Source: an uncultured archaeon (GTDB lineage Archaea > Halobacteriota > Methanosarcinia > Methanosarcinales > Methanoperedenaceae). From it: 46,350 nt of DNA. The DNA lies in the NCBI GenBank assembly GCA_902384525.1, contig CABMCA010000126.1, forward strand, positions 1-46,350. Direction: 5' to 3'. Every line of letters starts with the position of its first letter. Position 1 is the first letter of the stretch. The position numbers were made by a program, and so were the translations under genes. The notes beneath the pieces are model-generated. The model ran no database searches and was not told where the DNA came from. It saw nothing but the letters and a program-made list of their open reading frames with translations. Of this stretch, positions 38,249 to 43,178 are shown piece by piece.

Positions 38249-39346
38249 TCAAACAAAACCTGCTATCACATTCTTCCTGTATTCTGAAAAACTGTCCTCC
38301 AGTATCGCTTCCCTTGCCCCTTTCACTATTGACTGGATAAAGTGAAGATTATGTATGGAGGCAAGCCGAAGCGCCAGCAATTCGGATTCCTTGAAAAGAT
38401 GATGCAGGTATGATCTTGTATGATTCCTGCATGTGTAGCATCCGCAATTTTTATCTATCGGTGAAAAATCCATTGTAAATTTATTCCGCGCAATATCAAT
38501 ACTCCCTTTTGAGGTCATAAGTGTCTGGTGCCTTGCATTTCGCGTGGGGAACGCGCTGTCAAAAATATCGATGCCGGATTCGATCGCATTTAATATCTCG
38601 ATCGGTGAACCCACACCCATAAGATAGCGCGCTTTATCTTCAGGGACAAGCGGAACGCTAAACTTCAAAACATCATTCATTATTTCCTTGGGCTCACCAA
38701 TCGACAGGCCGCCTATCCCATAACCGTCAAAATCCATCTCGATCAGTTCCTCAGCACATCTTTTTCTCAATTCTGCAAAAGTCCCGCCTTGGAGTATGGC
38801 AAAAAAGAGCTGTCCGTGATTCTGTTCCACATTTTTTGCCATGGCCGCCCACTTTATCGTCCTTTCCATTGATGCTTCAACAACGCTAAACTCACTCCCA
38901 TAAGCAGGGCAATCATCAAGTATCATTGCCACATCGCTCCCAAGCAGCTTCTGGTTCTCAAGACATATTTCAGGAGTATAAGAATATTTTTTCCCATCCC
39001 GCAGGTTCTTATAAATAATCCCTTCATCGTTGATCTTGAATGGAAAATCCTTTCGTATCATCTGGAAGCCGCCGCTGTCCGTGAATATGCCTCCCTTCCA
39101 GTTCATGAATTTATGCAGGCCTCCGGCTCTGTGGATAACCTCCATCCCTGGAGCGAGCAACAGGTGAAAAGCATTGCTTATCAGCACTTCTGTTCCCATT
39201 TCGTACAGCTCATCGGTTGTAAGGGTCTTCACTGTCGCTTTTGTGGCAACGGGCATGAATGCAGGAGTATCGATGATGCCATGGTTGGTCATGAGTTTTC
39301 CTGCTCTTGCTCCTGTATTTTTATCTGTGTGGATCAGCCTGTACAT
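38249..39346 (-). CDS. tgt: Bacterial-type tRNA-guanine transglycosylase
   Basis: This base-exchange enzyme would replace G34 of tRNAs with GUN anticodons by preQ1. Catalytic Asp residues lie in FTDSGGFQMI and GIDIFDSAFPTRNARH, substrate residues in AMILDDCPAYG, FFAILQGG and GIGGLSIGEPKE. The zinc site CGCYTCRNHTRSYLHHLF matches bacterial Tgt. Its 365 residues are far shorter than archaeal arcTGT, and the Ile in GGLSIGEP suggests preQ1 rather than queuine. It is encoded 5 bp after queA in the same operon. Confidence 0.92.
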   Translation of the reverse strand: MYRLIHTDKNTGARAGKLMTNHGIIDTPAFMPVATKATVKTLTTDELYEMGTEVLISNAFHLLLAPGMEVIHRAGGLHKFMNWKGGIFTDSGGFQMIRKDFPFKINDEGIIYKNLRDGKKYSYTPEICLENQKLLGSDVAMILDDCPAYGSEFSVVEASMERTIKWAAMAKNVEQNHGQLFFAILQGGTFAELRKRCAEELIEMDFDGYGIGGLSIGEPKEIMNDVLKFSVPLVPEDKARYLMGVGSPIEILNAIESGIDIFDSAFPTRNARHQTLMTSKGSIDIARNKFTMDFSPIDKNCGCYTCRNHTRSYLHHLFKESELLALRLASIHNLHFIQSIVKGAREAILEDSFSEYRKNVIAGFV

Positions 39347-39351
39347 ATTAT

Positions 39352-40365
39352 TTATCCCCCCCCCTTGAAAACAAGCATTGCATCCCCGAAACTGTAAAAC
39401 CTGTATGAATGTGATATGGCTTCATTATAAGCCTCCATCAACCGTTCCCGGCCTGCAAAAGCGCTCACAAGCATCAAGAGCGTGGATTTAGGGAGATGGA
39501 AATTTGTGATCATAGCATCAATTTTTGACCTGAACTGATATGATGGATAAATAAAAAGCTCACTGAACCCTTCTTTTTCTATTATTTTCCCATCAATGCA
39601 TGAACTTTCAAGTGCCTTTACCGTTGTTGTTCCTGCTGCTATGAGTTTTCCGGGGGTTCCATTGATAATGTCTGCATTTTCCTTTCGGACAGAAATATAT
39701 TCAGGTTCCATTATATGGTTTTCAATATCCTGAGCCTGAACTGGCGTGAAAGTCCCGGGGCTTACATGAAGAGTGATATAAGCGATGTTGACGCCTCTTC
39801 CTTTTATCCTCTCCAATAACTCGTTCGTGAAATGAAGACCGGCTGTTGGCGCTGCAATTGAGCCTTTTTCTTTCGAATAGACAGTCTGGTAACGGTTCTT
39901 ATCATCGAGTTTTTGTTTGATATAAGGAGGCAGCGGCGCTTCCCCTATTTTTTCAAGAATATCAGGAAGATTCCCATTGCAATTGAAATTAACAAGATAC
40001 CTGTTTGTATTAGGCCTCTCCAATATCCGGAGCACTGTTGCTTCAAGCTCACCAAAATTAAGTTTTGTACCTTCCCGGATATTCTTCCCGCGTATCATGC
40101 ATTCATAACCAGCGTCACTTCTTGAGACAACAAGCGCTTCCACATGACCGCCTGTACTTTTTTTTCCCATGAGTTTTGCAGGTATTACTCTTGAATCGTT
40201 AAGAACAAGAGTATCTTCGGCCTCAAAGTAATCCAGGACATCGCAGAAAAAACGGTTCTCGATCTGTTGCCCCACCACCATTAATTTAGATGCATCTCTT
40301 GGTTCTATTGGAGATTGGGCGATAAGTTCTTTGGGAAGATGATAGTCAAATTCGGAAAGTTTCAT
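39352..40365 (-). CDS. queA: S-adenosylmethionine:tRNA ribosyltransferase-isomerase QueA
   Basis: This enzyme transfers the ribosyl group of SAM to preQ1 in tRNA, giving epoxyqueuosine. The family features are all present: FDYHLPKELIAQSPIEPRDA, LVLNDSRVIPAKLMGKK, IAAPTAGLHFTNELLERI, then THVS-type YITLHVSPGTFTPVQAQDI and FHLPKSTLLMLVSAFAGRE. The length of 337 residues is normal. The gene directly precedes tgt. QueA is a bacterial enzyme, unusual in an archaeon, so gene transfer is likely. Confidence 0.95.
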   Translation of the reverse strand: MKLSEFDYHLPKELIAQSPIEPRDASKLMVVGQQIENRFFCDVLDYFEAEDTLVLNDSRVIPAKLMGKKSTGGHVEALVVSRSDAGYECMIRGKNIREGTKLNFGELEATVLRILERPNTNRYLVNFNCNGNLPDILEKIGEAPLPPYIKQKLDDKNRYQTVYSKEKGSIAAPTAGLHFTNELLERIKGRGVNIAYITLHVSPGTFTPVQAQDIENHIMEPEYISVRKENADIINGTPGKLIAAGTTTVKALESSCIDGKIIEKEGFSELFIYPSYQFRSKIDAMITNFHLPKSTLLMLVSAFAGRERLMEAYNEAISHSYRFYSFGDAMLVFKGGG

Positions 40366-40404: not shown

Positions 40405-41178
40405 TCAGCCAATTGAGTTTCTTTTAAAATATAAAAACATGTAATGGTTTTTTTTCATCAGCGAAATTATATCCATATCTGACGTAATATAATCATATTC
40501 TTTTTTTAATCTGGAATTGAACAATTCCACATATTGTTTGGCAATTTTTTCTTCTTCGTTCTCCTTCCTTTCTATATAATTGAATTTTCTGAAAAGCCTC
40601 TCTTTTTCGATTTTATCTTTCAGGTCAATATCGTTAATATCCAGTTTCTTCTTCTTTATCTCATTAATAAAGATCTCCTTATCAGCTTCCGAGTACAATG
40701 GGTTCTTGTCAAGAAATGATTTGATCTCAGAGGTCAATATGCTTCCTTTCAGATCGCGGACAATTCTTTCTTTTGTGAGTTGTTTCAATTTTCCTATTAG
40801 CTTTTTTTCATTTTCTTCATAACCATTTGAGATCAAGAAGCTGGCAATTTCCGTTATCTCCGTTCCCTTAGGAATACCTTTCATTTCGAAAAAATTATTT
40901 AATGTGTCTTCAATCTTTGTTCCAAAAAATTTATAAAAAAAGGTATCATAATTAATTAATTCTTTTCTCAGTTCATCAAAAATAGTCCGGGATCTTTTTT
41001 CACCATACAGTCTTGCAAAAGTTTTTTCTAGTGATAAGACCAGATTTTCAATTTCATTTTTGGATGGATTTACTCCTATACCCAATTTTTTAACCGATTT
41101 TTGGAAAATTATAATGCCTAAATCACCTATATTTGTTTCAAGATAAATTTTAACGATGTTCAGTGAATCTGCCGGCAT
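40405..41178 (-). CDS. Uncharacterised soluble protein (paralogue-like of the 42321-43178 product)
   Basis: The 257 residues are predicted helical and highly charged, with no membrane segment. The N-terminal 80 residues (VKIYLETNIGDLGIIIFQKS, then LVLSLEKTFARLYGEKR) may form one domain, and a second helical part contains IEKERLFRKFNYIERKE. The motif IEKERL-F/Y-RKF also occurs in the product at 42321-43178. A strong ribosome binding site (GGAGG) precedes ATG 41178. It is the last gene of a four-gene operon. I do not recognise the family. Confidence 0.65.
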   Translation of the reverse strand: MPADSLNIVKIYLETNIGDLGIIIFQKSVKKLGIGVNPSKNEIENLVLSLEKTFARLYGEKRSRTIFDELRKELINYDTFFYKFFGTKIEDTLNNFFEMKGIPKGTEITEIASFLISNGYEENEKKLIGKLKQLTKERIVRDLKGSILTSEIKSFLDKNPLYSEADKEIFINEIKKKKLDINDIDLKDKIEKERLFRKFNYIERKENEEEKIAKQYVELFNSRLKKEYDYITSDMDIISLMKKNHYMFLYFKRNSIG

Positions 41179-42320: not shown

Positions 42321-43178
42321 TTATTTATCACTGATAAGATGTTTAAGCCCAAGGTCTTCAAGCGTATCCCTTGTATCATCTTCAGAAGGTGTCATGAGTT
42401 TTATGAATTCTGAGACTGATTTGTCGGAAACTCCGGATTCATCCTTGATAAGATAGCTTAGTTCCTGTTTTCCTAATTTTTTACTGAGCGCATCTTTATT
42501 GGTTGTATTTTTGATCAAATTGACAAGTTCATTGATCTGTGATGGTATTACAGTATCCTGCAGCCCATGGAATTTCCTGTAAAGCCTTTCTTTTTCAATC
42601 TCATCCCTCAGTTCATTTTCCTCAAAAACCAGTTTTGAGAGACGAATATAATGTATAAAATCATCAATATCGTTTTTCGTGGGCTCCTGGAATCTTGAAA
42701 GTAAATCCTTTATTTCTGCATTTATTCTGTTCCGGCTGATTGTCTTTTTTATCTGGTCTTTAATTTTTTCAATTATTTCTTTTTCAACATTCTTCGCCTT
42801 GCCGCCATATTTCAATGTCAGGTATTTAGCATAATCGGCAATATCCCGTTCAGTGGGTAATGTGTTTTTGTCCAAAAAAGTATATATTTCTTTTTCCATA
42901 TCACTATCTAAGATATGTTCCGGTTTTTTCTTATTCTCCACAAAATCAAGGGCATTGCGTCTTAATATATTTCCAATATCGTTAGCCGTATTTTTTCCTG
43001 CCAGTATACCTGTATTGATTTCAAGAAGGTCGATAAATTCCTTAAAATCGCTGATATTTGATTTATCAGTCAGTTTTTTCCTTGCCTTTATATTATTTAC
43101 AATTCCACCTGCCAACTCCCCGAAATATACTTCCAGTGTCTGAGTACAATACTTTTCAAACTCACTCGAGTCGGCCAT
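42321..43178 (-). CDS. Uncharacterised soluble protein, first gene of the four-gene operon
   Basis: The 285 residues are helical and charged without membrane segments. The N-terminus (QTLEVYFGELAGGIVNNIKA, then FIDLLEINTGILAGKNTAN) has the same rhythm as the N-terminus of the 40405-41178 product. A central DEIEKERLYRKFHGLQ matches its IEKERLFRKF motif. Several repeated helical units contain DIxDxxxYxxxLK-like patterns (RDIADYAKYLTLK, NDIDDFIHYIRLS). A ribosome binding site AAAGGATG precedes the ATG. No family recognised. Confidence 0.65.
   Translation of the reverse strand: MADSSEFEKYCTQTLEVYFGELAGGIVNNIKARKKLTDKSNISDFKEFIDLLEINTGILAGKNTANDIGNILRRNALDFVENKKKPEHILDSDMEKEIYTFLDKNTLPTERDIADYAKYLTLKYGGKAKNVEKEIIEKIKDQIKKTISRNRINAEIKDLLSRFQEPTKNDIDDFIHYIRLSKLVFEENELRDEIEKERLYRKFHGLQDTVIPSQINELVNLIKNTTNKDALSKKLGKQELSYLIKDESGVSDKSVSEFIKLMTPSEDDTRDTLEDLGLKHLISDK

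Follow-up and report, generated by a model that had tools for sequence, protein, structure and literature searches.

Queuosine is usually regarded as a tRNA modification of bacteria and eukaryotes, and archaeosine as the archaeal one. Whether an archaeon that carries tgt and queA genes of bacterial type makes queuosine beside its archaeosine is the question raised by the present locus. The first-pass annotation had read in it a short bacterial-type Tgt, with a bacterial zinc site and a preQ1-type pocket, paired with QueA. It had proposed a transferred pathway operating beside archaeosine, in a lineage not expected to make queuosine, with a preQ1-forming QueF as a further need. The window, the whole stretch of DNA analysed (46,350 nucleotides), is contig C126 of a Ca. 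Methanoperedenaceae MAG (G000) of 2.92 Mb and 97% completeness. In our reading the tgt-queA pair is likely the middle of a working Methanoperedenaceae queuosine pathway, an old bacterial acquisition that runs beside archaeosine. The point against it is that no preQ1 source was found among the known genes (QueF, QPTR, QueT, ECF).

The tgt, queA and queH genes

Gene tgt (nt 38249-39346, minus strand) encodes a tRNA-guanine(34) transglycosylase of 365 residues. The protein scores 450.1 bits against the bacterial profile TIGR00430, exceeding the cut-off of 306.75, and 155.9 bits against TIGR00432, the model of the archaeosine enzyme arcTGT, well short of the cut-off of 350. The nearest solved structure is the Tgt of T. 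maritima (2ash, E 1.3e-103). The description of a short bacterial-type Tgt is thereby confirmed.

The substrate-pocket motif GGLSIGEP occupies residues 212-219 of the window Tgt, equivalent to 229-236 in the aligned Zymomonas mobilis Tgt. It lies at nt 38690-38713 of the minus strand, as derived from the residue numbers. When 33 archaeal Tgt sequences were aligned to the Z. mobilis protein, whose numbering is used here, the equivalents of the catalytic and recognition residues D102, D156, Q203, G230, L231, E235, M260 and D280 were present in all 33. The zinc ligands C318, C320, C323 and H349 are likewise intact in every sequence. The zinc site is common to the wider TGT family, so that the ligands stand as described, but the site is not diagnostic of a bacterial Tgt.

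Cys158 is kept in 33 of the 33 archaeal sequences. Position 233 is Ile in all of them; it is Val in bacteria, and is not the Gly of queuine-using enzymes. It was reported that replacing Cys158 by Val reduces the affinity of Tgt for preQ1, and that Gly at position 233 of the eukaryotic enzymes gives space for queuine (PMC3660597). Because Cys158 is kept and residue 233 is Ile rather than Gly, the archaeal pocket is predicted to take preQ1 and not queuine, in agreement with the pocket type first proposed. The window Tgt would insert preQ1 at position 34 of GUN tRNAs. The archaeal Tgt clade also has two fixed substitutions, S110R and L68I, beside otherwise invariant sites.

Gene queA (nt 39352-40365, minus strand) encodes a tRNA preQ1(34) S-adenosylmethionine ribosyltransferase-isomerase of 337 residues. 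Its scores exceed the cut-offs of both NF001140 (411.6 bits; cut-off 324) and TIGR00113 (375.5 bits; cut-off 267.45), with a full-length match over residues 1-333. Bacterial QueA 1yy3 is the nearest solved structure (E 9.7e-94). The gene lies directly upstream of tgt on the same strand with a gap of 5 nt, and the pairing of Tgt with QueA is confirmed. The two genes are neighbours with identical strand and order in all 19 examined archaeal loci that hold both, and queH adjoins them in some of the loci.

Other genes upstream of queA were noted. In seven Methanoperedenaceae loci a SAM_HAT (S-adenosylmethionine hydrolase) gene lies upstream of queA, mostly directly (L172, 12054-12830; L166, L168-L171 and L173). 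SAM_HAT consumes SAM, as does QueA. In the window, the upstream proteins of nt 40405-41178 and 42321-43178 have no family match. They carry a similar stretch, IEKERLFRKF in one and IEKERLYRKF in the other, and may be paralogues.

The reduction of epoxyqueuosine is carried out by QueG or QueH in known systems, and the two were searched for as the annotation had suggested. QueG (TIGR00276) gave only matches below the 200-bit cut-off in the 34 Methanoperedenaceae genomes. QueH was found in the window genome at G000:C108:24629-25132, with a match to PF02677 above the cut-off (E 1.5e-60); none of the NCBIfam models matched this protein. Almost the entire protein can be aligned with the solved Thermotoga QueH (7lc5, E 1.1e-29), and the CC, CxxC and CGC cysteine motifs are kept. 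QueH would therefore take the step of QueG from epoxyqueuosine to queuosine. Because QueH is encoded in the window genome, queuosine, and not epoxyqueuosine alone, is the predicted end product. In three loci (L167, L171, L172) queH adjoins or lies near a GuaA-like gene and a radical-SAM gene that by eye resembles the archaeosine synthase subunit RaSEA; the two 7-deazaguanine pathways may be physically linked here.

QueA and QueH are each present in 33 of the 34 Methanoperedenaceae genomes. The only genome without QueA is 74% complete, and QueA occurs in every one of the 21 genomes with at least 90% completeness and at most 5% contamination. Across 186 genomes of the order QueA was found in 49, namely in the Methanoperedenaceae, in a single genome from a second family and in most of a third; the remaining families gave no match. 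In a set of 57 genomes spread across the order QueH occurs in 26. QueA and QueH are found together in 23 of the 57, one alone in 5 and neither in 29, where the genomes are related and do not count as 57 independent cases. Four of the five genomes with only one of the two genes are at most 83% complete.

Between species, at unsaturated dS, dN/dS ranges from 0.05 to 0.15 in tgt, from 0.07 to 0.20 in queA and from 0.06 to 0.18 in queH. With values in the range of 0.05-0.20, the three genes are under purifying selection.

The supply of preQ0 and preQ1

The archaeosine enzyme arcTGT is longer than bacterial Tgt and works on preQ0 at position 15. In the window genome it is encoded on contig C47 (630.7 bits, above the TIGR00432 cut-off of 350), ArcS on contig C108 (720 bits, above the cut-off) and QueC at C109:3281-3916. 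Thus arcTGT and queC, both named in the annotation as genes to look for, are present. A queD-queE-folE cluster occurs in the relative G005, which is the genome where queD and queE were read. Since QueC, arcTGT and ArcS are in the genome and the cluster is in this relative, preQ0 is probably made in the Methanoperedenaceae cell. A second QueC-like gene of the window genome (L224, G000:C63, 374-1511) overlaps another gene that encodes a TIR domain of the Thoeris type (PF08937) and looks like a defence-associated QueC, not a preQ0 enzyme.

The preQ1-forming QueF called for in the annotation was not supported. None of the 34 Methanoperedenaceae genomes has a chromosomal copy. The sole hit above the cut-off, and the lone true QueF of the family, lies on contig C66 of the Methanoperedens MAG G010 amid phage-like genes; the same copy is the only match among 57 genomes of the order, in a search which recovered the control genomes expected to have QueF.

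This phage-like contig (L114, L117, L185) carries QueC, FolE-like and phosphoribosyltransferase genes along with QueF. Its gene content suggests viral 7-deazaguanine DNA modification, and it may come from a virus of a bacterium that was binned with the MAG. Weak QueF matches in G005 and a second one in G010 were judged by eye to be FolE-like GTP cyclohydrolases and were rejected; the FolE-like gene of G005 adjoins queD and queE.

How preQ1 reaches the pathway is then the main question, and two routes, import by a non-classical transporter and a novel preQ0 reductase, have about equal odds. Both are alternatives inside the preferred reading, and their probabilities are not to be added to that of the reading itself.

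In the first route, which we rate a little short of an even chance, the archaea import preQ1 from bacterial neighbours by a transporter outside the known families, and queuosine is a product of the community. The lack of QueF in every chromosome examined is in its favour, as is the cohabitation with bacteria, since Methanoperedens-type archaea live alongside them. It is also known from bacteria that promiscuous carriers belonging to several unrelated families, MFS, ureide permease and hemolysin III among them, can transport preQ1 (PMC11130926). The absence of the known transporter families argues against import. QPTR (PF02592) is found in none of the 34 Methanoperedenaceae genomes and QueT (QueT/QrtT, PF06177) in none of the 57 genomes from across the order. 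The broad ECF family PF12822 exceeds its cut-off in 3 of the 34, with no match in the window genome. Nor does a transporter recur beside queA, tgt or queH.

In the second route, the preQ0 that the cell makes for archaeosine is also converted into preQ1, by a reductase unrelated to QueF. We regard such an enzyme as a serious possibility, though with the balance clearly against it. The substrate should be at hand, judging from QueC, arcTGT, ArcS and the queD-queE-folE cluster of the relative. The strong purifying selection and the inheritance through three families would also be easier to sustain with an internal supply. To our knowledge there is no preQ0 to preQ1 reductase other than QueF. The gene neighbourhoods speak against this route: neighbour clustering of 20 regions and the window around queA, tgt or queH, and of 20 regions around queC, gave no convincing recurrent gene for a preQ1 source. 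In 5 of the 20 queC loci a nitroreductase-like gene lies nearby, which is a weak lead. An Rfam scan of 137 kb, covering the window and five stretches in which these genes lie, detected tRNAs only and no preQ1 riboswitch. The full proposal, in which a non-QueF reductase acting on their own preQ0 lets the Methanoperedenaceae and their archaeal relatives make queuosine as well as archaeosine, is tentative and on the doubtful side.

Ancestry of the genes and the remaining readings

Trees were built from 77 QueA and 73 Tgt proteins, with bacterial sequences chosen by similarity to QueA and with the DPANN sequences left out. All archaeal QueA proteins form a single clade (support 97/90), and so do all archaeal Tgt proteins (100/100). 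Within both clades the Methanoperedenaceae and the third family are each a clade. Because the archaeal sequences fall into one clade in either tree, the topology fits a single old acquisition of QueA and Tgt from bacteria followed by vertical inheritance. The queuosine genes are an old inherited trait of three archaeal families and did not arrive by recent local transfer. The notion of a transferred pathway beside archaeosine stands, as QueA and Tgt are of bacterial type and the archaeosine set is in the same genome.

The branch leading to the archaeal Tgt clade is long (0.69), which leaves room for a third reading. The enzymes could have been repurposed, with Tgt inserting preQ0 or queuine, or with the proteins acting elsewhere than at tRNA position 34, and no queuosine would be made. 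The many clade-fixed substitutions, S110R and L68I included, and the failure to find a preQ1 source are in line with such a change. However, Cys158 and all residues for substrate recognition and catalysis are conserved, and Ile233 narrows the pocket instead of opening it. The enzymes for the steps after preQ1-tRNA, QueA and QueH, are conserved together. Repurposing is thus improbable.

That a bacterial contig was binned into an archaeal genome, for which the bacterial type of tgt and queA is the sole argument, is ruled out for practical purposes: the contig also carries archaeal genes (PolB, a PurP-type ligase, an ERCC4-domain protein and a SepSecS/SepCysS-type enzyme), and QueA recurs throughout the family (33 of 34 genomes) and elsewhere in the order, with all archaeal sequences in one clade. 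The best QueA matches in named genomes, at 76-84% identity, are those of Methanoperedenaceae FeB_1 and two Methanoperedens MAGs, and bacterial QueA reaches at most 51% identity to the window protein.

Tgt, QueA and QueH are retained, under selection and inherited together, and we therefore argue that queuosine is made. The enzyme activities, the presence of queuosine in tRNA and the route of preQ1 supply are what we infer from the genes. In the proposed pathway, Tgt would exchange G34 for preQ1 in the tRNAs for Asn, Asp, His and Tyr, whose anticodons are of the GUN type. QueA would add the ring from SAM to the preQ1-tRNA to give epoxyqueuosine, which QueH, encoded elsewhere in the genome, would reduce to queuosine. 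In parallel, arcTGT and ArcS would make archaeosine at position 15, probably from self-made preQ0. The preQ1 would be supplied by import from neighbours or by a non-QueF preQ0 reductase. The queuosine genes would have been acquired from bacteria once, before the archaeal families split, and inherited since.

Comparison with known systems

The premise that queuosine is not expected in archaea has been overtaken. In a 2021 paper in Front Microbiol, QueA, QueH and Tgt were described from 34 archaeal genomes, of which 12 belong to DPANN, and Figure 4 of the paper names Methanosarcinales (PMC8204110). Because of this report, the presence of the pathway in Methanosarcinales is not new and is not claimed here as a discovery. 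Methanoperedens, ANME and preQ are all absent from the text of that paper, nor does it take up the missing preQ1 source. A literature search, which took in few of the subscription journals, found no work on queuosine in Methanoperedens or on queuine in ANME. What the present analysis contributes is the distribution across the family, the grouping of the archaeal sequences in one clade, the examination of active sites and selection, and the missing preQ1 source.

Both 7-deazaguanine pathways are found in one archaeal genome, with a common early precursor. The lack of QueF throughout the family, together with a full set of later steps, makes a testable gap: either the archaea rely on bacteria for a tRNA base or they carry a novel nitrile reductase. 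The former would parallel animals, which rely on bacteria for queuine.

The archaeosine pathway of arcTGT and ArcS shares with the window Tgt the TGT superfamily and the preQ0 precursor stage, and differs in the enzyme, as the window Tgt gives 156 bits where the arcTGT model requires 350. A further close counterpart is the bacterial queA-tgt operon with QueH, exemplified by the queA-tgt order of E. coli and the QueH of Thermotoga maritima. The gene order is the same, queA then tgt in E. coli K-12 as in the window, and so are the enzyme families, the catalytic residues of Tgt and the cysteine motifs of QueH. In contrast to the bacterial system, the archaeal host also has the archaeosine genes and lacks QueF and any known precursor transporter. 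Its QueA and Tgt form a distinct archaeal clade, and the window proteins share about 40-51% identity with the bacterial sequences that were compared.
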